From the NCBI RefSeq assembly GCF_002119405.1, contig NZ_MTBG01000004.1:1-64000 (forward strand): a DNA stretch of 64,000 nucleotides, in the 5' to 3' direction. Positions 43,571 to 60,030 of this stretch are shown here, piece by piece (within the stretch, counting starts at the first letter, position 1; every line of letters begins with the position of its first letter). Origin of the DNA: Pseudoruegeria sp. SK021 (GTDB lineage Bacteria; Pseudomonadota; Alphaproteobacteria; Rhodobacterales; Rhodobacteraceae). The position numbers were made by a program, and so were the translations under genes. The notes below the pieces were generated by a model. That model worked only from the letters and a program-made list of their open reading frames with translations, searched no databases and had not been told where the DNA came from.

Positions 43571-45379
43571 TCAGGCGGGATTTCGGTTGGCCGCCAGCGG
43601 CAGCTCGTCAGTCCCCAGCAGGCTGGACAGTGAGTCTTCCGTCTGGCGCCATGCCTCCAGAATATCGGTTTGGGTTTTCAGGATCGGGCTCGGCGATTTT
43701 TCTGCCGGTGTCAGGAATAGCGAGGTCGCCAGTGGCCGTGAGGACCATACGATCAGGACGGGCGCAAGAATCATCGGCAGCGTCACCGGCAAAAGCCATG
43801 GCACAAGCGATGGGGCCATGAAATAGGCGGCGCCGAGTCCGGCAAGGCCGAAGCTGACGATCCAATAACTGGCGGCCCATCCGGTCGCATAGGTCAGGCT
43901 GCCATCGCCGCGGTTGTTGGTCGGCCAGCCGCCGTCGCTGCCCCGCAGCACTTGCAGGACCGACCGGGTCTGAAACACCAACAGAACCGGTGCGGTGACA
44001 CTGGACAGCAACAGCTCGGCCAATGTCGATCTCAGTGTCTGGCGCCAGCAGCCAAAGCCGTCGGCCCGTCCACGCAGGATCGCATCGACGGCCACCAGCA
44101 GTTTTGGCAGGATCAGCAAACCAATAATGCCCACTAGCAAGGCGATCGCTGTCGAAGTTTCATAACTGGGGAAGATTGGAAACCGCCAGTCTTCAACCGG
44201 AAAGTAATCCGGGGGCGGGGTGAAGGCCGGGGCCGTGATGCTGGCGGCCAGAAAGCCAAGCCAAAACAGCGGCGCGATATAGGCGAAGATGCCCTGCACA
44301 AAGACGAACCTGCTCCAAGGTTTCAGTCCGGGCGCCAGCAGCAGTCGGGTGTGTTGCAAATTGCCTTGGCACCAACGGCGGTCCCGTTTGGCGTGATCGA
44401 GGATATTTTCCGGGCCTTCCTCATAAGAGCCTTCCAAATCCACATCGAGGCGCACCTGCCACCCTGCGCGGGCCAACAGTGCGGCTTCGACGTAATCATG
44501 GCTCATAATGTGACCGCCGAAAGGCGGGCGTCCGGACAGTTCAGGCAAACCGCAGCTTTCGACAAAGGCCCGAACCCGCACCATGGCGTTATGGCCCCAG
44601 AATGGCCCGGTGCGACCCTGCATCAGGCCTAGGCCGCGGGCGAACACCGGTGAGTTGAAGCTGGCGGCGAATTGCATGGCGCGTCCGAAAATGGTGCGGG
44701 CACGGATCACCTTTGGCAGCGACTGGAGCAATCCAAGTGTCGGATCGGCGTCCATTCTGCGAACCATCTCAAGGATGGTCTCACCTTCCATCAAGCTGTC
44801 GGCATCCAAGATCAAAGCGTAATCATAGGCGCCGCCAGAGCGCTTGAAGAAATCTTCGATATTGCCCGCCTTACGACCACTATTGTCGCTGCGGCGTCGG
44901 TAGAAGATTTTGCCTTCCCCATCACATTCCCGCAGCAGGCGCAGGAACCAGACCCGCTCTAGTTTGGCGATGTCTTCGTTCCGCGTGTCCGACAGGATTG
45001 CGAAATGCACCGCCTTGCCGTCAGGCCCGCATGCAGACAGCGATTTCTCCATCGCTGCGATGCGCGAAAAGGTGGTGACCGGTTCTTCATTATAGACCGG
45101 AACCAGCACGACCGTGCGGCCCTGAGTCCGCGCATCGCTATGCTGCGGCTCCACCGGGCCACCGACCAGTCCCAAAAGGGCCAGTGAGGCCCCCCAAGCC
45201 AGCCACCACGTCGAGACGAGGATCAACAGGCTGCGGACGATGTCAAAGGCATCAATGCCGTTGGCGGCATCGATCTGAACAAAAATCAGGCAGGCAGTGA
45301 CGGCCGCACTGAAGCTGACCGCCAAAGCGACTTGCCGAGCGAGCGTTGCCACCCGCTCCTGCCTGTTTTGTGTCGCCAT
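43571..45379 (-). CDS. opgH: Glucan biosynthesis glucosyltransferase OpgH
   Basis: The 602-aa integral membrane protein has a GT2 glycosyltransferase domain between transmembrane segments. The start region has spans at about 18-38 and 45-70, the catalytic domain at about 85-310 includes TVVLVPVYNEEP, LILDADSLMEG and MSHDYVEAALL, and the QxxRW-type motif reads RDRRWCQGNLQH. Further spans follow to about 535. OpgH polymerises UDP-glucose into beta-1,2-glucan and passes it across the inner membrane. An in-frame TTG at 45382 directly precedes the ATG. The gene starts 3 nt after the small ORF, so it is coupled to it. Confidence 0.92.
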   Translation of the reverse strand: MATQNRQERVATLARQVALAVSFSAAVTACLIFVQIDAANGIDAFDIVRSLLILVSTWWLAWGASLALLGLVGGPVEPQHSDARTQGRTVVLVPVYNEEPVTTFSRIAAMEKSLSACGPDGKAVHFAILSDTRNEDIAKLERVWFLRLLRECDGEGKIFYRRRSDNSGRKAGNIEDFFKRSGGAYDYALILDADSLMEGETILEMVRRMDADPTLGLLQSLPKVIRARTIFGRAMQFAASFNSPVFARGLGLMQGRTGPFWGHNAMVRVRAFVESCGLPELSGRPPFGGHIMSHDYVEAALLARAGWQVRLDVDLEGSYEEGPENILDHAKRDRRWCQGNLQHTRLLLAPGLKPWSRFVFVQGIFAYIAPLFWLGFLAASITAPAFTPPPDYFPVEDWRFPIFPSYETSTAIALLVGIIGLLILPKLLVAVDAILRGRADGFGCWRQTLRSTLAELLLSSVTAPVLLVFQTRSVLQVLRGSDGGWPTNNRGDGSLTYATGWAASYWIVSFGLAGLGAAYFMAPSLVPWLLPVTLPMILAPVLIVWSSRPLATSLFLTPAEKSPSPILKTQTDILEAWRQTEDSLSSLLGTDELPLAANRNPA

Positions 45380-45382
45380 CAA

Positions 45383-45565
45383 TCAGTGGCCGGCGGAGAC
45401 TTGTTTCGGTCCAAAAAGATGGGCAATCCGCCGAAAGACGGTGCCGCGAAGGTCCGATTCAATCACTTGCTTGGGCATTGGAAGCGGCGCATCAGGCAGC
45501 GTTCCCATGCTGACAATCGTCAGGTCAATTGCGTCGTCGGAGGATAGATACAGTTCATGCTTCAT
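45383..45565 (-). CDS. opgI: Small protein in the opgI position between opgG and opgH
   Basis: The 60-aa product (MKHELYLSSDDAIDLTIV...) starts with an ATG overlapping the opgG TGA (ATGA) and ends 3 nt before the opgH start, so it is translationally coupled to both and is very likely real. It is soluble, with no signal peptide or clear membrane segment, an acidic first part and a basic second part (ESDLRGTVFRRIAHLFGPKQ). A short gene between opgG and opgH was described as opgI in Rhodobacter sphaeroides; I name it by position and cannot confirm sequence identity. A small cytoplasmic regulator or chaperone of OpgH would fit. Confidence 0.75.
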   Translation of the reverse strand: MKHELYLSSDDAIDLTIVSMGTLPDAPLPMPKQVIESDLRGTVFRRIAHLFGPKQVSAGH

Positions 45566-47154
45566 TCGTTGACCCATTGGTATAGCCACGTTTCACTCAA
45601 TTTCCTGCCATAACCTGCGAGATGGGCGCTTAGTTCCACAGTCGTGCCCGCCGGTGCTGCAATGTCCAGCACGAGGCGCCAAAGATCCGTTCCCGCAATC
45701 GGATCAAGTGTGGTTGTAACAACTTCGCCATTTGCGGCCGTGACGACCGCTTGGATTTCATCAGAGGCTGGCATCTCGCTCAGAATTCCGCCTTTGAAAT
45801 CAATGACAAACTTTTGGTGGCCGGTGGTGTTGGCGACGCCAGATACCCCGCCCAGCCCCGACCGCGTCTCATCGACATAGGCCAAGGTGCCGTTCGCATC
45901 TGGGGACAGATCGCCCCAGATTAGCCGATAAGAAAATTCGCGCTCGTCCCCGGCTTTGACGGTGCCCTCGACCTGCCAAAAGGCGACAATGTTGTCGTTC
46001 ACTTCCAGATCGGTCGGGATTTCGACCAGTCGGACCGAACCGGCACCCCAATCCCCGAGCGGTTCCACCGCAAGCGACGGACGCCGTTCAAAATTCGATT
46101 CCAGATCTTGGTATTTGTCGAATGTGCGATCACGCTGCATCAGACCGAATTCGCGCGGCGTTTGTTCCGTGAAGAAGGAATTGGCCAGATGGGTCGGATT
46201 GTTCAGCGGCCGCCACAATTCATCACCATTCGCGCGGACGATGCGCAAGCCTTCGCTGTCATGAACGCTAGGCCGATAATCGTCAAAGCGGTGGTGAACC
46301 CCGTCGGAAAACAAGAACATCGAGGTCAGCGGCGCAACCCCCAGCTGTTCCACATCCTTGCGGAAGAACAGGCGCGCCGTCACGTCCATGATGGTATTGG
46401 TCCCGGGAGTGATCACAAACCGATACGCGCCGGTCAACGAGGGGCTTTCCAGCGCGGCATAGACCAGCACGGTTTGGCTCCCGTCGGCGGGGCGTTCCAG
46501 ATAGAACTCGGTGAACAGCGGGAATTCTTCGCCTGCGGGGCTGGCCGTGTTGATCGACAGGCCACGCGCACTCATGCCGTAGGCGCTGTCGCGACCCAAG
46601 GCGCGGAAATAGCTGGCGCCAACAAACGCGACCACTTCGTCAAAAATATCAGGACGGTTCAACGGCGTGTTCAGGCGGAAACCGGCCACACCGGGCAGGG
46701 CAAAATGCTCGGGCACCCGGTCGGCCAGCGTGTTGCGATATTCAAAATCGTCGGTCGAAAACAGCATTTCCTGCGCGGTGCCGTCGGTCACTTCGAAGAG
46801 GCGAACAGGGGCGCCAAAGAGCCAGCCCATGTGAAAGGCCTGCACGGTGAAAAATCCAGTGTCCCGCCACGGCGCGCTGTCTTCGCGGAACCGGATTTGG
46901 CGGTAATCGTCATAGTTCAATTCCGCCAAGAACCCGTCCGGCGGGGTCGCTTCTGTCCAAGGCGTGTCCCGGCGCAGGCGCATTTGGTCGGTCAGGGTGT
47001 CGAACGAGAAGGGGGCCACTTCGGGGGCGATGTCAGACGCATCTTGGGCCCCAAGGACAGAGGGGAAAGCTGCGGCGAACACCGCAGCAGACACGGCTGA
47101 GCCAAGCAATTGGCGGCGATGAATTAAGGAAGTGGCGGCGCGAGTAGTCGACAT
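45562..47154 (-). CDS. opgG: Glucan biosynthesis protein OpgG
   Basis: Starting at 47154 (MSTTRAATSLIHRRQLLGSA) gives 530 aa with a Tat-like leader (HRRQLL) and cleavage near LGAQ. The body has OpgG/D features: LRRDTPWTEATPP, YDDYRQIRFREDSAPW, HMGWLFGAPVRLFEV and FFTEQTPREFGLMQRDRTFD, with RPSLAVEPLGDWGAGSVRL. OpgG/OpgD proteins make up glycoside hydrolase family GH186 and shape or release beta-1,2-glucan in the periplasm. It is the first gene of the opg operon. The Asp residues I would expect to be catalytic cannot be assigned without an alignment. Confidence 0.92.
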   Translation of the reverse strand: MSTTRAATSLIHRRQLLGSAVSAAVFAAAFPSVLGAQDASDIAPEVAPFSFDTLTDQMRLRRDTPWTEATPPDGFLAELNYDDYRQIRFREDSAPWRDTGFFTVQAFHMGWLFGAPVRLFEVTDGTAQEMLFSTDDFEYRNTLADRVPEHFALPGVAGFRLNTPLNRPDIFDEVVAFVGASYFRALGRDSAYGMSARGLSINTASPAGEEFPLFTEFYLERPADGSQTVLVYAALESPSLTGAYRFVITPGTNTIMDVTARLFFRKDVEQLGVAPLTSMFLFSDGVHHRFDDYRPSVHDSEGLRIVRANGDELWRPLNNPTHLANSFFTEQTPREFGLMQRDRTFDKYQDLESNFERRPSLAVEPLGDWGAGSVRLVEIPTDLEVNDNIVAFWQVEGTVKAGDEREFSYRLIWGDLSPDANGTLAYVDETRSGLGGVSGVANTTGHQKFVIDFKGGILSEMPASDEIQAVVTAANGEVVTTTLDPIAGTDLWRLVLDIAAPAGTTVELSAHLAGYGRKLSETWLYQWVNE

Positions 47155-50107: not shown

Positions 50108-51253
50108 ATGCTTTTCGCCCTCGGCATCACCCTCTTTTACCTCATCTTCGTCTGGGCGATTTTCTTTAAGTTCAAGCTGCTGAAATTCAGCATCGTCTGG
50201 GGGGTGGTGTCCTTCTGGGTTGGGGCCCATCTGCTGCTGATCTTTCTGGTGACTCTGCGGTTTTATCAGCCGTATTCCATCGACAGCCATGTTGTTCGCA
50301 ATACCATCCAAATTCTGCCGAAACTGACGCAGCCGACCATCCTGACCGAAGTTCTGGTGACGCCGAATACTCCGGTCAAGAAAGGCGATCCGCTGTATCG
50401 CTTTGATGCGACGGTGTATCAAAATCAGGTGGATTCGGCCCAAGCCCAGCTGGTTGCGGCGCAGCAGAACGCCAAGATCCTTGATGAAAACGTCAAGGCG
50501 ATGCAAGAGGCGGTGATCCGGGCCGAAGCCCAACTGGCCTATGCCCAGACCGAGCAAGTCCGCTATGCCACGCTGGTTCCGCAGGGCGGCGCGCCTCAGG
50601 ATGACCTTGACCGCTGGAACGAGCAAGTGACCGAAGATCAGTCCTTGGTTCTTGAAAAGCAGGCAGAGTTGCAAAAAGCGCTGCTGGCGCAGCAGTCGAC
50701 CATTGATGGCGTCAATACCGCGGTCGCGCAGGCGACATCCCAATTGGCCGAAGCCCAGTATTTTCTGGATAATACCACGCTATACGCGCCCGAAGACGGC
50801 ATGATCGTCTCGCAACAGGCGCGTCCGGGCTTGGTGGTCGGCGATGTGCGTCTCGGGGCCATCGCGGCCTTTGTGACCGAGGATAACCCCTATATTCTGG
50901 CGACGTTCCGGCAGCAGAACCTGAAATTCGTCAAGCCGGGTCAAGAGGTCGAAGTGGCGCTGGATCTGTATCCGGGTGATATTCTGACCGGCACGGTGGA
51001 AACGGTGTGGTGGGGCACCGGGCAAGGGCAATATTTGCCCTCAGGGATGACCCCGTCCTTCATTCTGCCAAAGCCGCCCGGCAAGATCGCGGTGCAGATC
51101 AAGGTGAACGTGCCGGACGGCTATCTCTTCCCGGCCGGTGGCCATGCGACCGTCGCAATTTACACCGGCGGGGCGACAAGCTTTGATTTCCTCCGTCGGA
51201 TTAACATTCGCCTCTATTCCTTCGGCAACTTCATCCGTCCGCTGGACATCTAA
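50108..51253 (+). CDS. HlyD-family membrane fusion protein (YiaV-like)
   Basis: The 381-aa protein has two N-terminal membrane spans (about 3-22 and 32-55), unusual for simple HlyD adaptors but seen in YiaV. A biotinyl-lipoyl-like half (TEVLVTPNTPVKKGDPLYRF) follows, then an alpha-helical hairpin of about 100 residues with heptad character (VDSAQAQLVAAQQNAKILDE), the second half (YAPEDGMIVSQQARPGLVVG) and a beta-barrel part. It should bridge an inner-membrane component and the TolC-like protein encoded 27 nt downstream. Confidence 0.88.
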   Translation: MLFALGITLFYLIFVWAIFFKFKLLKFSIVWGVVSFWVGAHLLLIFLVTLRFYQPYSIDSHVVRNTIQILPKLTQPTILTEVLVTPNTPVKKGDPLYRFDATVYQNQVDSAQAQLVAAQQNAKILDENVKAMQEAVIRAEAQLAYAQTEQVRYATLVPQGGAPQDDLDRWNEQVTEDQSLVLEKQAELQKALLAQQSTIDGVNTAVAQATSQLAEAQYFLDNTTLYAPEDGMIVSQQARPGLVVGDVRLGAIAAFVTEDNPYILATFRQQNLKFVKPGQEVEVALDLYPGDILTGTVETVWWGTGQGQYLPSGMTPSFILPKPPGKIAVQIKVNVPDGYLFPAGGHATVAIYTGGATSFDFLRRINIRLYSFGNFIRPLDI

Positions 51254-51280
51254 TCCGCAACCCAAAAGGCGCGAACACCC

Positions 51281-52858
51281 ATGAGGTACACGCAGACAGG
51301 TCCGGCACGCAGAGGATTGGGTCTGATGGCCCTGACATTGGCGGGTGCTTTGGCCGCCTGCACCCCGGTGGGGCCGAATTTCGCGCGGCCAAATTCGCCC
51401 GTTGTGCAGCAATGGATGGAATTAAACGCACCACAGCCCAGCGGCAGCGGCGGCTTGACCGCGCGAAGCGCGCCATCGGTTGCTTGGTGGCAGACGTTCA
51501 AGGATCCGACCCTGAACAAACTGGTGGCACAGGCCTATGCCCAGAACCTATCCTTGCAGGTCGCTGGGGCCCGGGTATTGCAGGCGCGGGCCCAACTCGG
51601 CATCGCCTATGGTGATATGTTCCCGCAATCACAGGCCGCGGGGGCGTCGTACAGCCGCCGCAAGATCAGCGATAACATTGGCAATCTGCCCGAACTTGAA
51701 AATTACGTGGATGTCGATACGACCTTCACCTCGGCGCAGGTGGGCTTTGACGCGCAGTGGGAATTGGACGTCTGGGGCGGCCAGCGGCGCGGGGTCGAGT
51801 CGGCCAGCGCCAATCTGGCCGCAAAAGTGGCAAGCTATGATGATGCGCTGGTCACTCTCACTGGCGACGTCGCCTCGGTCTATATCAACATCCGCGCGCT
51901 TCAGGAAACGCTGGCAGTGGCACGACAGAATATTGCGCTGCAACAAAAAGGGCTCGACCTGACGGACCTGCGGTTCAAAAACGGGGTGACGACCGAGTTG
52001 GATGTGCAGGAATCCACCGCGCTTTTGAACAACACCAAGGCGCTGATCCCGGCGCTTGAGAGCGATTTGCAACAGGCGAAAAATGCGCTGTCGGTGCTGC
52101 TGGGCCAACCGCCTTCGGCCATGTCAGACCTGCTGAAAGGGTCTGGACGCATTCCTTCGGCCAGTTCGCGCGTCGCAGTCGGCGTGCCTGCGGAATTGCT
52201 GCGCCGCCGTCCCGATATCCGGGCTGCAGAATTGACTGCAGCCGCCCAATCGGCCCAGATCGGGGTCGCGGTCAGTTATCTCTATCCGCAATTCATTCTG
52301 TCCGGGTCGATCGGGGTGCAGGCCAGCCCGGGAAATCCATTGTTCAGCACCGACAGTGTCACCGGATTGGCCAGCCCCGGCGTCGTCTGGAACATCTTCA
52401 ATTATGGCCGGATCAAGGACAATGTCCGAGTTCAGGATGCGGCTTTTCAGGAACTTGTCGCGAACTATCAGAACACGGTCTTGTCGGCTTATGCCGAGGT
52501 CGAAAATGCCATGGTCGGATACCAAAAGGCCAACCAAGAGGTTGGCTTCTTACAGACCAGCGTTGGCGCCTCGCAACGGGCGGCCGAGATCGCGCTTGAC
52601 CAGTATGGCGATGGGGTGGTGGATTACACCCGGGTCCTGAACACCCAGCAAGGGCTGTTGCGTGCGCAAGCCAACCTGATCACTGCCCGGGCTGCGGCAT
52701 CGACCAACCTTGTCGCCCTGTACAAAGGTCTGGGCGGCGGCTGGCAAGTGCGGAAGAATCAGGAATTCTTGCCTGAAGCTGTGTTGGCGGAAATGGCTTA
52801 TCGGACCGATTGGGGGGATCTTCTTCAGGCAACTCCGACGGGCATGAGTCTAAACTGA
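51281..52858 (+). CDS. TolC-like outer-membrane efflux lipoprotein (NodT family)
   Basis: The 525-aa protein has a lipoprotein signal peptide with lipobox LAAC (residues 23-26) and two OEP repeats. Recognisable parts are NPVVQQWMELNAPQPSG-like early sequence, SVAWWQTFKDPTLNKLVAQAY, then a first repeat with LGIAYGDMFPQSQ and a second with VSYLYPQFILSGSIG and NIFNYGRIKDNVR. Each repeat contributes helices and strands to the trimeric channel. With the DUF3302 and HlyD-type genes it forms a three-gene export operon, but no pump gene is adjacent. Confidence 0.9.
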   Translation: MRYTQTGPARRGLGLMALTLAGALAACTPVGPNFARPNSPVVQQWMELNAPQPSGSGGLTARSAPSVAWWQTFKDPTLNKLVAQAYAQNLSLQVAGARVLQARAQLGIAYGDMFPQSQAAGASYSRRKISDNIGNLPELENYVDVDTTFTSAQVGFDAQWELDVWGGQRRGVESASANLAAKVASYDDALVTLTGDVASVYINIRALQETLAVARQNIALQQKGLDLTDLRFKNGVTTELDVQESTALLNNTKALIPALESDLQQAKNALSVLLGQPPSAMSDLLKGSGRIPSASSRVAVGVPAELLRRRPDIRAAELTAAAQSAQIGVAVSYLYPQFILSGSIGVQASPGNPLFSTDSVTGLASPGVVWNIFNYGRIKDNVRVQDAAFQELVANYQNTVLSAYAEVENAMVGYQKANQEVGFLQTSVGASQRAAEIALDQYGDGVVDYTRVLNTQQGLLRAQANLITARAAASTNLVALYKGLGGGWQVRKNQEFLPEAVLAEMAYRTDWGDLLQATPTGMSLN

Positions 52859-53289: not shown

Positions 53290-55206
53290 GTGAACCGTTA
53301 CCGGAGTTTCTGGGGCCTGTTATCGGCCTACTGGGTATCCGAACGCTGGCGCGAAGCCTGGTTCCTGACGGTTCTGGTGTTCGCGATTACCACCTTGTTG
53401 AGCAAGGCAAGCGTTTGGGCAGCCCTTGCCAGCGCCGATTTTATCGCGGCTCTTGCCGGGTTTCACGACGACGCGGTCGTCAACCCGTCGCGCCTGCTGC
53501 TGACCGCGGCGTTGATCTTGGTCGGGGTGCATGTTTGTCGCGCCGGGATCGTCGCCATTCGACATTTTCTGTCCACCACTTTACATCGGCGCGCGCGCGG
53601 ATGGCTGGCGCAGCAGTTCAACCGTGAAATCCTGTCGGACCCTCGGATCGCTCTTGACCTGATGAGCGACCGGGCGACTGACGGCAGCCAGTCGCGCCTG
53701 CCAGACGCCATTGATCAGCGGATCGACGAATGTTCGGTTGGGCTTTACGGCGGGGTGATTGGGCTGGCGATGGGGCTGTGGGGGGCTGTGGCGTCAATCT
53801 GGTTCATCACGCAAGCCCTGTTGGAGCGCACGCAAACGGTGGCCTTCCTCGAGACATGGGCCGCGTCCCTGCAAACGGGACTTGCCTCCGTGGTCGGCCC
53901 CGACCTGGCGGCACGAATTGACCTTGCGCCGGGTCAGTACGGGACCCTCGTTTTGACGGTTGCTTTGGTCATTACCTATGTGCCGCTTGTTACCTATCTG
54001 GCGTGGATGATTGGCCGGGTGCTGGAGCGGCTCACCGTCGAGCGCCAGAAAAATAACGGCTCATGGCGCGGTGAACTGGCCGGGATGTTGACCCGGGTCT
54101 CGCAAATGGCCGCGTCGCGTGGCGAGCGGACCCAACGCCGGATCAATGGCCAGCTTTATGCGGATCTCGACAAGACCTGGGGTCGTCAGAATGTCTGGGA
54201 TGCGGGCATGATGATGTTCACCGACGTCTATAATTTTCTGTCGCGGAGAATGCTGGCCTATCTTCCGGCCCTGCCGGCCTTCATGGCCGGACGGCTGAGC
54301 TTTCGTGATTTCGCGGCGTCGTCTGAACTGACGGCAGAACTGATCAACGATGTGTCTTGGTTCATCAATGTGATGCCCGCCATCGCCACCCTGCGCGCGA
54401 ATGCCGACCGGTTGACGGAATTGGCCGCCGCGATTGAACGGGTCCGCGACCGGGATCGCTTTTATCAGGAAACCGGGGTCAGCCAATTTGATCGCGTCGC
54501 GGACGCGGGCGACTTCACGCTTCACGTTCAGGATCTGGCGCTGCACCACCGCGGCAAGCACACCGATCCGTTCGTGTCGGTGCCGCATCTAAGCGTTGTG
54601 CCCGGAGAATGGGTCTATTTGCGCGGCGATAATGGCTGCGGCAAAAGCTCTATTCTCAAGGCGGTTGCCGGGCTTTGGCCCTATGGCAGCGGCCGGGTGG
54701 GGCAAGCGGCGGGGACTCGGCTGTTTTTCGCGGGTCAGGACCCCGATGTGCCAGACCGGCTTACGCTGAAAGCGCTGGTCTGTTATCCAGAACCCGAGAC
54801 GGCCTATCACGATCTGGAGGTGGCAGATGTGCTGGCACGGGTCGGCTTGGCGGCGTTTATCAGGGTGCTGAACGATGACCTTTATCAAGGCCAGAATTGG
54901 CGTAGCGTTCTGTCTGGCGGACAGAAACAGCGCCTCGTATTGGCCCGAATTCTGGTCCAGCAGCCCGATGTGGTGTTGCTGGACGAAGCCACCTCGGCGA
55001 TGGACCCGCAAGGCGCCACCGACTTTCATCTGGCGTTGCGTGAGCGGGTGCCGAATGCGGCTGTCTTGGCGGTTCTGCATGGCAACAGCGTTCCTGCCGA
55101 TCCCGGTGGCAACCCGTTCTACGATACGATCCTCGATATCCGGCATCAGGTCGGGCGCACGCGGCCGGTGGCCTTGCCCCGGATTGCGCGCTTCGCGGCG
55201 GAATGA
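53290..55206 (+). CDS. SbmA/BacA-like ABC transporter (fused permease-ATPase)
   Basis: A GTG start at 53290 (VNRYRSFWGLLSAYWVSERW) follows GAGGAAG and gives 638 aa. The N-terminal membrane domain (about 1-330) has the ABC_membrane_2 pattern, with HFLSTTLHRRARGWLAQQFN and IDQRIDECSVG. The ATPase (about 430-620) has Walker A RGDNGCGKSSILKA, signature LSGGQKQRLVLARIL and Walker B VVLLDEATSAMD. The family includes YddA and SbmA/BacA-type proteins for peptides, lipids or vitamins. It is 32 nt upstream of the GH3 gene, so it may carry an oligosaccharide or modified glucan, which would be unusual for this family. Substrate unknown. Confidence 0.82.
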   Translation: MNRYRSFWGLLSAYWVSERWREAWFLTVLVFAITTLLSKASVWAALASADFIAALAGFHDDAVVNPSRLLLTAALILVGVHVCRAGIVAIRHFLSTTLHRRARGWLAQQFNREILSDPRIALDLMSDRATDGSQSRLPDAIDQRIDECSVGLYGGVIGLAMGLWGAVASIWFITQALLERTQTVAFLETWAASLQTGLASVVGPDLAARIDLAPGQYGTLVLTVALVITYVPLVTYLAWMIGRVLERLTVERQKNNGSWRGELAGMLTRVSQMAASRGERTQRRINGQLYADLDKTWGRQNVWDAGMMMFTDVYNFLSRRMLAYLPALPAFMAGRLSFRDFAASSELTAELINDVSWFINVMPAIATLRANADRLTELAAAIERVRDRDRFYQETGVSQFDRVADAGDFTLHVQDLALHHRGKHTDPFVSVPHLSVVPGEWVYLRGDNGCGKSSILKAVAGLWPYGSGRVGQAAGTRLFFAGQDPDVPDRLTLKALVCYPEPETAYHDLEVADVLARVGLAAFIRVLNDDLYQGQNWRSVLSGGQKQRLVLARILVQQPDVVLLDEATSAMDPQGATDFHLALRERVPNAAVLAVLHGNSVPADPGGNPFYDTILDIRHQVGRTRPVALPRIARFAAE

Positions 55207-55238
55207 CCTGAGCAACTTCAACAGGCAGAGTTCTTTTT

Positions 55239-57482
55239 ATGGTTGATCCCAAGGCGCTGTTGGCGCGCATGACGCTGTCCGAGAAAATCGGGCAGCTCAA
55301 TCTTTTGGCGGCAGGTGAAGGCCTTGCGACCGGGGCAGGTGGCCCCACCACCCTCGGCACCCGGCTTGATACCGGGATGATTGGGGCCATCTTCGGGACC
55401 AAATCGCTGGCCTCGGCCCGGGCGATGCAGGAGCGGGCGCTGGACGGGTCGCGCCTGGCCATTCCGCTGTTTTTTGCCGAGGACGTGATTCATGGTCACC
55501 GCACGGTGTTTCCGCTGCCGGTGGCGTTGGCCTCTAGCTGGAACATGGGGCTGATCGAGGACACCGCAGCCTTTGCCGCTGCCGAAGCTGCCGCCGAAGG
55601 GTTGCACCAAGTGTATGCGCCGATGATTGACGTGACGCGGGATCCGCGCTGGGGCCGGGTTGCCGAAAGCCCGGGCGAGGATCCGTATCTGGCTGCGCGG
55701 GTGGCGGTGGCCATGACTGCGGGGTTGCAGGGCGACGATCCCGCCGGTCCCGGGCGGGTTGCGGCGTGCCTCAAGCATTTCGTGGCCTATGGCGCGCCGC
55801 TGAGCGGACGGGATTATGACAACGCGTCGCTGGCTTGGGAGGATCTGCTGGGTCTGTATTTGCCCCCGTTCGAGGCCGGTTTGGCGGCCGGTGCGGCGTC
55901 GGTCATGGCCGCCTTCAACGCAGTCAACAAAGTGCCGATGCATGCCAATGGTGATTTGATCGAGGGATGGCTGCGCGGGAAACAGGGTTTCGACGGGCTG
56001 GTCGTCTCGGATTATACTGGTGTGGCGGAACTGACCGCCCACGGCCTTGGCAGTGGCCCGGCCATCGTGGCGCGGGCGCTGCATGCCGGGATCGATATGG
56101 ATATGGTGGGCGAAAGCTATCTGGCCGAACTGCCGGAACTGGCGGCTTCGGGGCTGGATGCGCCGGATTGCGGCCTTTGCCTATCTGCCGAATCCATCGT
56201 CACCTTGATTGATCGCGCCTGCCTGCGGGTGCTGACATTCAAGGCGCGCCTTGGGTTGCTCGACAATCCTTATCGCGGGCTGGATGGGGCAGTGCCCGCG
56301 CCGGACCGGATTAAAGGCCGGGCGTTGGCCCGTCGTGCGGCGGCGCAAAGCGCGGTTCTGCTGAAAAATGATGGGGTCCTGCCCTTGCCCGCCGAGGGTC
56401 GAATAGCTCTGATCGGGCCATTCTCGGACGATCGCACCAACATGCTGGGCACTTGGGCGGTTTCTGCTGATGCGCGCGAGGTGACGACCCTGCACGAGGC
56501 GATTGCCAGCCGGACTGGGGTGCAGGTCACGACGGCACGCGGTGCGAATGTTGTCGATGTCCCGTGGTTGGCCGACCGCTTGAACGTGCATGGACCCACC
56601 GTGGAGATTGATCCGCGTGATCCTGCCCAGATGATTGCCGAAGCAGTGACGGCCGCCCGTGCCGCCGATGTGGTGATCTTGGCAATTGGCGAGGCCAAGG
56701 AACATGCGGGCGAATCGTCGTCCCGGCTGATGCCCGACATTCCCGCGCCGCAGCGCCGGTTGTTGGCGGCGCTGGCCGAGACCGGCACGCCGTTGGTGGT
56801 GGTGGTCTTCGCCGGGCGTCCGCTGGCGCTTGGCAGTGCGACCGCCGCTGCCGACGCGTTGCTTTATGCGTGGCACGGGGGCACCGCCGGACCCGAAGGG
56901 GTGGCAGATGTGCTGTTTGGCGATGAGGCCCCCTCGGCGCGGTTGTCGGTCAGCCTGCCAGCTCATCCCGGTGAAGGCCCGCTGAGCTATGCCGCCGAAA
57001 CCACCGGGCGACCCAATCGAGGCCGGTTTGAAAAGTTCCGCACCGGTTGGCTTGATCTTGATGACGCCGATGCCGCCGCCGCGTTTCCGTTCGGCTTTGG
57101 CTTGGGCTACGGTTCGGTCCGCTACGGTGCGCCGGTTCTGTCGGCCCCGACCGCCACCGGGCAGGAGGGTGAGGTTACCTTGACGGTCGCGGTCACCAAT
57201 GACGGCGACCGGGCCACTGTCGAAACGGTCCAGCTCTATCTGTCCGATCCGGTGGCGCGGATCACCCGCCCGGCCCGGATGTTGATCGATTTCCGGCAGG
57301 TCGCGCTGGCGCCGGGCGAGACGGCCTCGGTTCCGTTCACGGTCACCTGCGATCAGATCAGCTATCCCTTGGCGCCATCAATGGATTTGGCGCAGCAGGT
57401 CTGGGACCCTGGGGTGATCCAGCTTCATGTGGGGCCCAATAGCCGCGACACCCAAATGGCAGAGCTGACATGGCTGGCGTGA
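55239..57482 (+). CDS. GH3-family beta-glucosidase (BglX-like, cytoplasmic)
   Basis: The 747-aa enzyme begins MVDPKALLARMTLSEKIGQL with no signal peptide, unlike periplasmic BglX. The first domain has PLFFAEDVIHGHRTVFP and APMIDVTRDPRWGRVAESPGE-like sequence, and the nucleophile Asp lies in LVVSDYTG. The second domain has AIGEAKEHAGESSSR, holding the likely acid/base Glu. A fibronectin III-like domain closes the protein (about 635-745). It releases glucose from beta-linked oligosaccharides. It overlaps the GH144-like gene, which suggests that the two attack the same substrate, beta-1,2-glucan pieces, in the cytoplasm. Confidence 0.88.
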   Translation: MVDPKALLARMTLSEKIGQLNLLAAGEGLATGAGGPTTLGTRLDTGMIGAIFGTKSLASARAMQERALDGSRLAIPLFFAEDVIHGHRTVFPLPVALASSWNMGLIEDTAAFAAAEAAAEGLHQVYAPMIDVTRDPRWGRVAESPGEDPYLAARVAVAMTAGLQGDDPAGPGRVAACLKHFVAYGAPLSGRDYDNASLAWEDLLGLYLPPFEAGLAAGAASVMAAFNAVNKVPMHANGDLIEGWLRGKQGFDGLVVSDYTGVAELTAHGLGSGPAIVARALHAGIDMDMVGESYLAELPELAASGLDAPDCGLCLSAESIVTLIDRACLRVLTFKARLGLLDNPYRGLDGAVPAPDRIKGRALARRAAAQSAVLLKNDGVLPLPAEGRIALIGPFSDDRTNMLGTWAVSADAREVTTLHEAIASRTGVQVTTARGANVVDVPWLADRLNVHGPTVEIDPRDPAQMIAEAVTAARAADVVILAIGEAKEHAGESSSRLMPDIPAPQRRLLAALAETGTPLVVVVFAGRPLALGSATAAADALLYAWHGGTAGPEGVADVLFGDEAPSARLSVSLPAHPGEGPLSYAAETTGRPNRGRFEKFRTGWLDLDDADAAAAFPFGFGLGYGSVRYGAPVLSAPTATGQEGEVTLTVAVTNDGDRATVETVQLYLSDPVARITRPARMLIDFRQVALAPGETASVPFTVTCDQISYPLAPSMDLAQQVWDPGVIQLHVGPNSRDTQMAELTWLA

Positions 57483-58732
57483 TCCGGGGCTTGGACGATG
57501 CGGCGCTGCGCGATCGGGTGGCCCAAGCCACGGCCAGCTACTTCACCGATTGGAGCCATCCCACCAGCGGCATGGCCCGCGAGCGGAGTGCCGGGGATTT
57601 CGGCTATGACATTGACGACACCGTCACCACCGGCGGCACCGGCTTTGGCCTGATGGCGCAGATCGTCGTCGCCGAGCGGGGTTGGCGGCCGCGTCGCGAT
57701 TTGGCCGACCGGCTGTATCGCTTGGTGGACTATCTGGAAACCGCCGACCGCTTTCACGGGGTTTTTCCGCATTTTCTGTCCGGCAAGACCGGGCGCGTCA
57801 TTGCGTTTTCTCCCGGTGATGTTGGCGGTGATCTGGTCGAAACCGCCTTTTTAATGACCGGCCTGCTGGCGGCCGCCCAGTACTTTTCGGAACTGTCCGA
57901 TCTGGGCGTTCGGATCGAGGCGCTGTTCAACGCGGTGGAATGGACCGCCCATCTGCGCCAAGCCGATTGCGCGGTGATGTGGCATCGCCATCCGACCACC
58001 CCTTGGGCCGAGCACGCTCTGCCGATCCGCGGCTGGAACGAGGCGCTGCCGGTCTTTATCCTTGGCGCGGGATCGCCGACGCATCCGCTGCCGTCCCGGG
58101 CCTATCACGACAGTTGGGCCCGCGCGCCTGAATTTCTGAATGGCCAAAGCTATGACGGGATCGTCTTGCCGCTTGGACCGGACCGGGGCGGGCCGCTGTT
58201 TCTGTCGCAGTATCCGTTTCTCGGGATCGATCCACGCGGGCTGCGCGATGCCTATGCGGATTATGGTCAGCAGGCGCGGGCGCATGCGTTGGTCAATCGG
58301 GCGCATTGTTTGGCTAACCCGCATCACTGGACCGGCTATGGCCCGGACTGTTGGGGCCTGACCGCCAGTGATGACCCGGCCGGATATGCCGCCCATGCGC
58401 CGCATCATGACACCGGCACAATCACCCCGACCGCCGCGCTTGGCTCGTTCGCCTTTACTCCGGTCGAATCCATGCAGGCTTTGCGCCATTTCCATGACTG
58501 CCTTGGCGATCGGATCTGGGGCGAGGCGGGATTTGTCGATGCCTTCAATCTGGATCAGGACTGGATCGCCGAAAGCCGCCTTGCCATCGATCAGGCGCCG
58601 ATTGTGATCGGCTTAGAAAATTACCGCTCGGGCCTGATCTGGCGCTTGGTCATGGCGCGGCCCGAAATTCGCAATGGTTTGGCGGCGCTGGGGTTTCAGG
58701 GCGATGGCCTGTCCAGTGCGGAGCTGTCCTGA
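57470..58732 (+). CDS. Glycoamylase-fold enzyme, GH144 endo-beta-1,2-glucanase-like
   Basis: The 420-aa protein has the glycoamylase (PF10091/COG5368) pattern: TGGTGFGLMAQIVVAERGW, then HGVFPHFLSGKTGRV, VETAFLMTGLLAAAQYF, YDGIVLPLGPDRGGPLF and GLTASDDPAGY, followed by TPTAALGSFAFTPVESM. This is the alpha/alpha6-barrel family containing GH144 endo-beta-1,2-glucanases, though not all members have that activity. There is no signal peptide. Its ATG overlaps the GH3 end by 13 nt, and a GTG at 57479 would give a 4-nt overlap instead. Together they would break beta-1,2-glucan to glucose. Confidence 0.82.
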   Translation: MAGVIRGLDDAALRDRVAQATASYFTDWSHPTSGMARERSAGDFGYDIDDTVTTGGTGFGLMAQIVVAERGWRPRRDLADRLYRLVDYLETADRFHGVFPHFLSGKTGRVIAFSPGDVGGDLVETAFLMTGLLAAAQYFSELSDLGVRIEALFNAVEWTAHLRQADCAVMWHRHPTTPWAEHALPIRGWNEALPVFILGAGSPTHPLPSRAYHDSWARAPEFLNGQSYDGIVLPLGPDRGGPLFLSQYPFLGIDPRGLRDAYADYGQQARAHALVNRAHCLANPHHWTGYGPDCWGLTASDDPAGYAAHAPHHDTGTITPTAALGSFAFTPVESMQALRHFHDCLGDRIWGEAGFVDAFNLDQDWIAESRLAIDQAPIVIGLENYRSGLIWRLVMARPEIRNGLAALGFQGDGLSSAELS

Positions 58733-60030
58733 CATCGGGCGCAGGCCGCATCCCGCGCGGCGGCGGCGGCGATAAACGCGGCCGCGCTCCAGCTTAACTC
58801 AAGGCTTGAGGTCGGCGCGCCGCTTGACCGGTCGAATTGTTCGGGCAGGGCATCGCCGCTTGGTGCGACCTCGCGGATCAGGTCCATCCAGCCCTCGGCC
58901 TTGGCGAAGGCTGCGGTGTCCCCGGTTTGGGCCGCGATCCGGTAGTACAACTCGGCAAAGCCCAAGGTCACCGGATACCACGGATTGCCGCCGAAAAAGG
59001 CATCCTCGGCCCAACGCCCTATGGCAGGGACTGCCCGCCCCCGGTTGATCGGATAAAGCGACGCGCATTGCTGGGCCAGCGCCGCCGCTGTTCCCCTCGT
59101 GCGCGGCGCGGTTAGGGCAAAGGGCCCGTCGCCACGTCCGGCTTGCAAGATTGCCAGCACCGTGGCCGCATCCACCTGACCCGGCGCACCCTCAAGGCTT
59201 TCGATCCATGCGTCTTGGAGGGGGTCCGCCGCGCCCTCCATAAGGGTGATCAAACGCTTGGCAGCCGCAGTGCAGCGTGCGGCCAGTGCCGCGTCACCGT
59301 GTGCTGCCGACCACATCGCCCCACGGTCCAGCGCATCCCATTGCGCGATCAGGGTATAGCTGTGCCGCCGTGCGGGGGGCTCTTCCCATGGGCCAATGCA
59401 GGGTTGACCGGCATGGGCCAGAACATGCGCCAGATCGCGGGCAATCAGGCGGTCCGCATTCGGGCTGGATAGCGCGGGCAGGGCTGCTGTCACCGCCATG
59501 ATCGCCGAGGCCCGCAAGGCCGGGCCGTCGAATTGCGGCGCGCTCCAGCGTTCGGAGTCGGGGCTGCCATCGGGGGCAAAGCGGGTCTCGTTCAGCCATG
59601 CCGCACCGGACAACAGACGCAATTCGGCCTCAGGGCGCAAAAATTGGCGGTGATCCGCGCGAGTGGTGGCAGCCAGAGGATTGGTTTTTGGCGCTGGCCG
59701 GGCCGGATCGGAAATGGCCAGAGAAAAGGTGACATGGTCGTGAAACGCTTGCACCCACCAGTCGTGCTCGGCCTCGGGGAGGTCCGCCAGAATGTCAGGC
59801 CAGACCCGGATGACGATTGCCGCATCGCGGATCCAGTGATGGAAATAATCCGGCTCGGGATCCCATGCGCTCATTCGCGGCGAGGCGAGGATTGACCCCG
59901 GAACCGGCCGGACCGTCCAGCCAAAACCTTGGCGGTGGCGTTCCAGATGTGTCGCGGAGACGGCGCCGCGCAGGGACCGGATCGCGCCGTCCCGCCGCGC
60001 CGTGATCCAAGGGGCCAGTCCTGCCGCCAT
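58696..60030 (-). CDS. GH15-family glucoamylase-like enzyme
   Basis: Starting at 60030 (MAAGLAPWITARRDGAIRSL, GGAG upstream) gives 444 aa with no signal peptide. GH15 motifs are seen in GSILASPRMSA, DYFHHWIRDAAIVI (catalytic-site Arg-Asp), GPWEEPPARRHSYTL (general acid Glu in WEE) and GGNPWYPVTLGFAELYY, with a C-terminal LPEQFDRSSGAPTSSLELSWS (likely base Glu). It should release glucose from alpha-1,4-glucan ends such as glycogen. Its 3' end overlaps the convergent GH144-like gene by 37 nt. Confidence 0.88.
   Translation of the reverse strand: MAAGLAPWITARRDGAIRSLRGAVSATHLERHRQGFGWTVRPVPGSILASPRMSAWDPEPDYFHHWIRDAAIVIRVWPDILADLPEAEHDWWVQAFHDHVTFSLAISDPARPAPKTNPLAATTRADHRQFLRPEAELRLLSGAAWLNETRFAPDGSPDSERWSAPQFDGPALRASAIMAVTAALPALSSPNADRLIARDLAHVLAHAGQPCIGPWEEPPARRHSYTLIAQWDALDRGAMWSAAHGDAALAARCTAAAKRLITLMEGAADPLQDAWIESLEGAPGQVDAATVLAILQAGRGDGPFALTAPRTRGTAAALAQQCASLYPINRGRAVPAIGRWAEDAFFGGNPWYPVTLGFAELYYRIAAQTGDTAAFAKAEGWMDLIREVAPSGDALPEQFDRSSGAPTSSLELSWSAAAFIAAAAARDAACARCQDSSALDRPSP

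Follow-up and report, generated by a model that had tools for sequence, protein, structure and literature searches.

Gene clusters for the use of beta-1,2-glucan have been described in Listeria innocua (lin1839-1841) and Streptomyces griseus (SGR_2422-2427). They combine a leaderless beta-glucosidase of glycoside hydrolase (GH) family 3 or GH1 with uptake by an ATP-binding cassette (ABC) transporter, and the S. griseus cluster additionally encodes a GH193 protein and has a gene annotated as an esterase (PMC12369401, PMC4757417; publications are cited by PMC number). A gene block of similar composition, encoding an ABC transporter, a GH3, a GH144 and a GH15 enzyme, is found in the alphaproteobacterium Pseudoruegeria sp. 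SK021 (contig NZ_MTBG01000004.1, positions 1 to 64,000; this whole stretch of 64,000 nucleotides is referred to as the window) and is the subject of this work. It differs from the two described clusters, which use a binding-protein ABC importer, belong to Gram-positive hosts and include a phosphorylase in Listeria; the accessible parts of both publications state no tie of these clusters to the synthesis of osmoregulated periplasmic glucans (OPGs).

For the single members of the block characterized relatives are available as well. The window GH144 is a homolog of the PF10091 enzyme CpSGL and shares all of its catalytic candidates, but unlike CpSGL it has no visible leader and is paired with an ABC transporter and a GH15. 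Like mycobacterial BacA (Rv1819c), the window ABC protein carries its transmembrane domain (TMD) and nucleotide-binding domain (NBD) in one chain and has no binding protein; in contrast, the known cargo of Rv1819c is cobalamin and other hydrophilic compounds. The GH15 shares its fold (Z 37-39) with glucoamylase and the isomaltose glucohydrolase 5z3a, and likewise the pair of catalytic Glu residues; unlike these enzymes it is linked to beta-glucan genes. The BglX-type GH3 of Escherichia coli is proposed to degrade unbranched OPG in the periplasm (PMC10514313), whereas the window GH3 has no visible leader. OPGs matter for osmotic adaptation and host interaction (PMC11842490), and in the open-licence literature searched no route is described by which cells take OPG back. 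Judging from gene content and residue conservation, the block probably represents a salvage pathway of this kind, acting on an OPG of the alpha-1,6-cyclised beta-1,2-glucan type.

Organization and conservation of the gene block

The block proteins were analyzed with Pfam domains, NCBIfam models, PDB sequence matches, AlphaFold2 (AF2) models and fold comparison. The Pfam families of ABC, GH3 and GH144 given here all score above their cut-offs. The block and its synthesis partners in the window are composed as follows:

53290-55206, + strand: ABC half-transporter with TMD and NBD, 638 aa (PF00005, marginal PF06472)
55239-57482, + strand: predicted GH3 beta-glucosidase, no visible leader (PF00933/PF01915/PF14310)
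57470-58732, + strand: predicted GH144 beta-1,2-glucanase, no visible leader (PF10091, E 3.9e-68)
58696-60030 (alternative start 60105), - strand: predicted GH15 alpha-glucosidase, no visible leader (PF00723, E 4e-33)
43571-45382, - strand: opgH (MdoH) glucan glucosyltransferase, outside the block (NF003959)
45562-47151, - strand: opgG/opgD-family gene (GH186) with twin-Arg leader, outside the block (PF04349, E 1e-179)

The ABC, GH3 and GH144 genes are arranged head-to-tail and the two hydrolase genes overlap by 13 nt (57470-57482), an overlap which is identical in the annotated coordinates of Paracoccus aminovorans, P. alcaliphilus and plasmid pLA6_008. The fourth member, the GH15 gene, is convergent with the GH144 gene, their 3' ends overlapping. 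As start of the ABC gene GTG 53290 was chosen and not the longer open reading frame from 53230, since the orthologs align from there. An initial annotation of this DNA had described the order of the first three genes, the overlap of the hydrolases, the lack of signal peptides in GH3 and GH144 and the presence of glucan synthesis in the same window: the coordinates agree with the former, the measured overlap and the missing leaders (see below) confirm the second and third, and opgH and an opgG-family gene are indeed present at a distance of 6.1 kb.

N-terminal leaders were searched with a simple hydrophobicity window and by reading by eye, not with SignalP, in a subset of the 29 blocks described below (13 GH3, 13 cluster GH144, 11 GH15, four rhizobial orphan GH144 and nine OpgG proteins; L004 was excluded). 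No leader was seen in the 13 GH3, 13 cluster GH144 and 11 GH15 proteins, those of the window included. All nine OpgG controls possess a twin-Arg/hydrophobic leader at one examined start; in L061 and L136 the leader appears only if the nearest start is passed over for one farther upstream. Some internal hydrolase starts score 1.6-1.75, within the control range of 1.6-2.3, and are not leader-like in appearance. A binding protein is encoded neither in the window block nor in the annotated blocks of P. aminovorans, P. alcaliphilus and pLA6_008, and the annotation of the latter three lists no TonB receptor and, the label BglX aside, no secreted protein; a binding-protein-dependent sugar ABC importer was rejected, as none of these four blocks holds a substrate-binding protein.

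In 390 genomes sampled evenly across the order, GH15 was detected in 13, and 12 of these carry the whole block of ABC, GH3, GH144 and convergent GH15. The 13th, G252, harbors a relic (L038, 8923-9886) in which only an alpha/beta hydrolase and 82 aa of the GH15 remain. We were able to collect a total of 29 four-gene loci with one common order and strand pattern (29/29); as these were selected for the presence of all four genes, this constancy is partly by choice and the independent figure is 12/13. Among 121 relatives, the ABC (E<=1e-60) and GH15 (E<=0.001) were each found in two and GH144 in four, G000 and G004 being the only ones with ABC and GH15 and also the only ones with a strong GH144 match. 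ABC, GH144 and GH15 are all missing from five other congeners, of which one has a completeness of 74 percent.

The wider distribution was determined by a scan with the ABC alignment, one genome per species (at least 79 loci), followed by tblastn mapping; duplicate genomes were removed and P. aminovorans was kept as two strains. L131, L138-L145 and L147 were left out as weak or partial ABC matches, and L146 and L148 were below the threshold. The scan matches listed include the block in Paracoccaceae and Roseobacteraceae, and ABC-GH3-GH144 with an alpha/beta hydrolase and no GH15 in Pleomorphomonas. The occurrence of the ABC without hydrolases in Rhodobacterales was judged from the 121 relatives and the at least 79 scan loci.

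Link to OPG synthesis

The window opgH is clearly assigned by NF003959 (951.7 bits, cut-off 550). Comparison of the fetched flanking sequences revealed opgG or opgH beside 14 of the 29 blocks, 13 times at 352-1180 bp and in the window at 6139 bp; this number is a lower bound, because distances were taken from the ends of tblastn matches and the flanks are of unequal length. Thirteen further loci, of which 12 have no GH15 and one is a relic, show no opg gene in the flanks that were fetched, with hardly any flank for L082. The tightest arrangements are those of G004, in which opgG-opgG-opgH-ABC-GH3-GH144 follow consecutively on one strand, and of plasmid pLA6_008, on which mdoG lies directly beyond the alpha/beta hydrolase.

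On the genome level, MdoG (OpgG) is present in 28/28 genomes with a hydrolase-linked ABC versus 0/6 with an unlinked related ABC, against a background of 258/390 in the order sample. The 28 genomes include those of L127 (ABC-GH3 only) and of L082 and L084 (divergent GH3, other strand) as well as G403 (only the second ABC described below), and the six were picked by hand, for genus spread, from the unlinked Hyphomicrobiales loci; owing to the kinship of the genomes the counts are less independent than they appear. GH144 occurs in 18 of the 390 genomes, 17 of them with MdoG; the exception, G374, is a weak match. All six unlinked genomes contain long GH94 frames of cyclic-glucan-synthase size. 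In the two Pleomorphomonas genomes G506 and G507 two GH94 matches each were observed; with about 835-868 aa their frames are as long as oligoglucan phosphorylases, not as cyclic glucan synthases. The co-occurrence with opg genes, which the initial annotation had named as a check of its proposal, is thus seen in flanks and genomes alike, and this comparative association supports a link of the block to beta-1,2-glucan synthesis.

These counts also bear on another explanation, namely that foreign bacterial beta-1,2-glucans or sophoro-oligosaccharides are taken up as food instead of the cell's own glucan being recycled. The block is patchy (12/390 genomes) and in three Paracoccaceae (P. aminovorans, P. 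alcaliphilus, pLA6_008) plasmid-borne, like a niche trait, and the Listeria and Streptomyces clusters are catabolic (PMC12369401). However, the three annotated blocks contain neither an outer-membrane receptor nor a binding protein, opg genes lie at most 1.2 kb from 13 blocks and MdoG is present in all 28 hydrolase-linked genomes checked, and we consider such scavenging unlikely.

Concerning the structure of the glucan, the window OpgG-family protein is nearest to 8x18 (XccOpgD, 393.8 bits), followed by 1txk (OpgG, 378.7 bits) and 9e01 (the next OpgD, 322.7 bits). XccOpgD makes the alpha-1,6 closing bond. The equivalents of its acid D379 and base D291 are kept in the window protein, W76 is replaced by Tyr, D343 by Leu and R477 by Asp; this pattern is the one reported for clade 4 in PMC11228985, according to which with Tyr at the position of W76 transglycosylation may be kept and the product differs, not being a 16-membered ring. 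The protein is a possible glucan-cyclising enzyme. In Cereibacter sphaeroides the glucan is a beta-1,2 ring of 18 residues closed by one alpha-1,6 bond (PMC11842490).

Catalytic residues of the hydrolases

The residue equivalences of GH144, GH3 and OpgG were counted by hand from alignments. The GH144 reaches 229.7 bits with PF10091 (cut-off 27) and matches CpSGL (5gzh) with E 1.5e-114. Its residues D117, D121, E124, E191 and D374 correspond to D135, D139, E142, E211 and D400 of CpSGL and are kept in 29/29 blocks; according to PMC12102758, D400 is the residue whose mutation leaves activity. GH144 genes without annotated ABC or GH3 neighbor were also observed on rhizobial and Agrobacterium vitis plasmids, one of them a Ti plasmid (L059, L060, L062, L063).

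The nearest PDB entries of the GH3 are JMB19063 and 5xxl, which we take to be BT_3567. In all 29 blocks D258 is kept, as are Y259, R591 and F600, which correspond to Tyr262, Arg587 and Phe598 of JMB19063. The latter belong to subsite +1, the sophorose subsite (PMC4757417). Beta-1,2 specificity of the GH3 is favored by these residues and not proved, because Lin1840 of the same GH3 clade also cuts laminaribiose (PMC4757417). Of the NCBIfam models, BglX fits the window GH3 best, its 611.6 bits being under the cut-off of 666.

The AF2 model of the GH15 (pLDDT 93) aligns with the glucoamylase 1ayx with a VIA-align Z of 38.8. E216, E217 and E397 are present in 29/29 blocks and both catalytic Glu residues are kept; L081 was excluded from the alignment for the GH15 model owing to a stop codon within the chosen coordinates. 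GH15 is a family which includes alpha-1,6-specific enzymes (PMC12446779), and its activities, with Z scores lying close together, are not separated by fold. The assumption that the OpgG type determines the presence of GH15 found no support: Tyr stands at the W76 position in 42 of 43 OpgG rows (the window included, some genomes represented twice), from clusters with and without GH15.

Beside the GH15 gene, 25 of the 29 blocks carry a gene for an alpha/beta hydrolase (e.g., L007, 3261-4010), which in Pleomorphomonas is colinear with the cluster (L087, 15453-16241). Its distant match to cinnamoyl esterases makes it a possible glucan deacylase. The initial annotation had proposed enzymes for beta-1,2-glucan, and the residues of GH144 and GH3 fit this substrate. 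It had missed the GH15 and the alpha/beta hydrolase of the relatives, and these two would point to an alpha-1,6-cyclised and often esterified glucan rather than to plain beta-1,2-glucan.

The ABC transporter

The sequence motifs of ABC proteins (Walker A K452, signature S542-G543-G544, Walker B D565-E566 and H597) are kept in 29/29 cluster orthologs. The best PDB sequence match of the window protein is Rv1819c (6tqe, E 2e-28). To this extent the earlier label "SbmA/BacA-like" is justified; PF06472 is matched marginally (26.5 bits, cut-off 24.4), and PF05992 is not matched by the window protein (by 5/28 relatives at E<=0.01), for which reason membership in PF05992 (SbmA/BacA) was rejected. SLiPT (SbmA proper) has no NBD (PMC13316013) and was rejected as well, the NBD of the window protein being intact. 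In the fold comparison of the AF2 model (mean pLDDT 84), Rv1819c gave the longest alignment among the best 50 rows (565 residues, 23 percent identity), and its Z of 21.6 lies among those of many type IV ABC transporters (top Z 24.1); with tied Z scores, these are not separated by fold. Rv1819c possesses a polar cavity of 7700 Å3 and imports hydrophilic cargo (PMC10960864). By our own arithmetic the dry volume of an 18-residue ring is about 3000 Å3, so that such a ring could fit into a cavity of this size.

The same fold leaves room for the opposite direction, i.e. an ABC transporter which exports glucan or another envelope compound, with the hydrolases clearing trapped or mis-made glucan from the cytoplasm as a quality control. 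Exporters have a type IV fold as well, among them CGT (7znu, Z 21.8) for cyclic glucan, and mycobacterial BacA also exports (PMC10960864). But for E. coli, PMC11842490 describes a release of the chain to the periplasmic side by OpgH, and only 17 of the 258 MdoG-bearing genomes of the order sample have a GH144 match, which means that export in the others does not depend on the block. Export combined with quality control therefore appears improbable.

The ABC protein may also transport an unrelated cargo (long-chain acyl compounds or peptides), the hydrolases alone acting on glucan. At least 43 loci in Hyphomicrobiales (Mesorhizobium, Sinorhizobium and others) encode ABC proteins about 37-44 percent identical to that of the window without an adjoining GH3, GH144 or GH15 match, and ExsE-type relatives are described in fatty-acid transport (PMC12003926). 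On the other side, the 12 unlinked ABC proteins sampled from these loci for a quick tree form one clade (SH-aLRT 99), separate from a clade of 14 linked ones (98), with Pleomorphomonas and two divergent linked ABC proteins placed in neither; place and strand of the ABC gene are constant in 29/29 blocks; and GH3-GH144 of other Rhodobacterales have a second, distinct ABC protein beside them, of PF05992 type in the single copy examined. Of the three alternatives we hold this one for the least probable. The unlinked loci (L089-L118, L120-L123, L125, L126, L128-L130, L132-L134, L137) possibly encode ExsE-like proteins.

The second ABC type lies next to GH3-GH144 in L058 (13171-14955), L065 (8528-10303), L066 (11159-12844) and L067 (960-2564); in L030 (18654-19901) and L032 (18474-19901) it is separated from the block by about 2.4 kb. 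The copy tested (CZR27, L058) is a PF05992 (SbmA/BacA) member with the degenerate signature LSESEKQ. In the window, genes for an HlyD-family adaptor and a NodT-type outer-membrane efflux protein (50108-52858) lie on the way from the opg genes to the block. At E<=1e-12 these have no match in L007 and L027-L037; a weak HlyD match (27 percent) lies directly upstream of the block in L057.

Proposed salvage pathway

In the order of steps that we infer, OpgH and the OpgG-family enzyme would supply the periplasm with beta-1,2-glucan, probably as a ring with one alpha-1,6 bond as in C. sphaeroides. Glucan no longer needed would be imported into the cytoplasm by a homodimer of the ABC protein without the help of a binding protein, the direction in which leaderless enzymes could meet a periplasmic polymer. 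There GH144 would open the ring and GH3 would trim the chain at its non-reducing ends, releasing beta-1,2-linked glucose. Since GH3 cannot cut the alpha-1,6 bond, GH144 and GH3 would leave a residue at this position, and the GH15 would be needed for removal of the glucose left there, so that the chain is finished. Succinyl or acetyl esters would be stripped by the alpha/beta hydrolase in most relatives (25/29), not in this genome.

Several findings weigh against this pathway. The enzymes which the GH15 most resembles in sequence and fold are glucoamylases of the fungal type (Z 38.8), with the alpha-1,6 enzyme 5z3a close behind (Z 37.3). The clusters L078, L119, L064, L087 and L088 have no GH15 though their genomes have MdoG, and the diagnostic residues of OpgG do not distinguish GH15-bearing from GH15-less genomes. 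With the G004 protein as query, and without a positive control, the alpha/beta hydrolase was unmatched in the window genome. The best NCBIfam match of the ABC protein is a fatty-acyl transporter model (100 bits, cut-off 918.9), and transport of the BacA type can run outward too (PMC10960864). The window opg genes lie at their 6139 bp from the block on the opposite strand, and none of the fetched flanks of Paracoccus blocks contains an opg gene. Finally, two of 17 GH15-bearing genomes (G493, G500) also have a long GH94 frame of cyclic-glucan-synthase size, and the contrast between opg and ndvB genomes is therefore not clean.

With these points considered, salvage of OPG is still the explanation that we favor. 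Its full form, i.e. a dedicated recycling in which whole rings (about 3 kDa) enter through the BacA-type ABC transporter and are converted to glucose by GH144, GH3 and GH15 (with the esterase in most relatives), the GH15 serving solely for the one alpha-1,6 closing bond, is put forward tentatively, our doubts slightly outweighing our confidence. By analogy the block would belong with the catabolic glycan clusters, of which the known beta-1,2-glucan representatives use binding-protein ABC transporters (PMC12369401). If the proposed salvage is true, OPG synthesis would gain a catabolic partner and a major periplasmic polymer a turnover route, a sugar polymer would be added as cargo of BacA-like ABC transporters, and the occurrence of a GH15 alpha-glucosidase among enzymes for beta-1,2-glucan would be explained.

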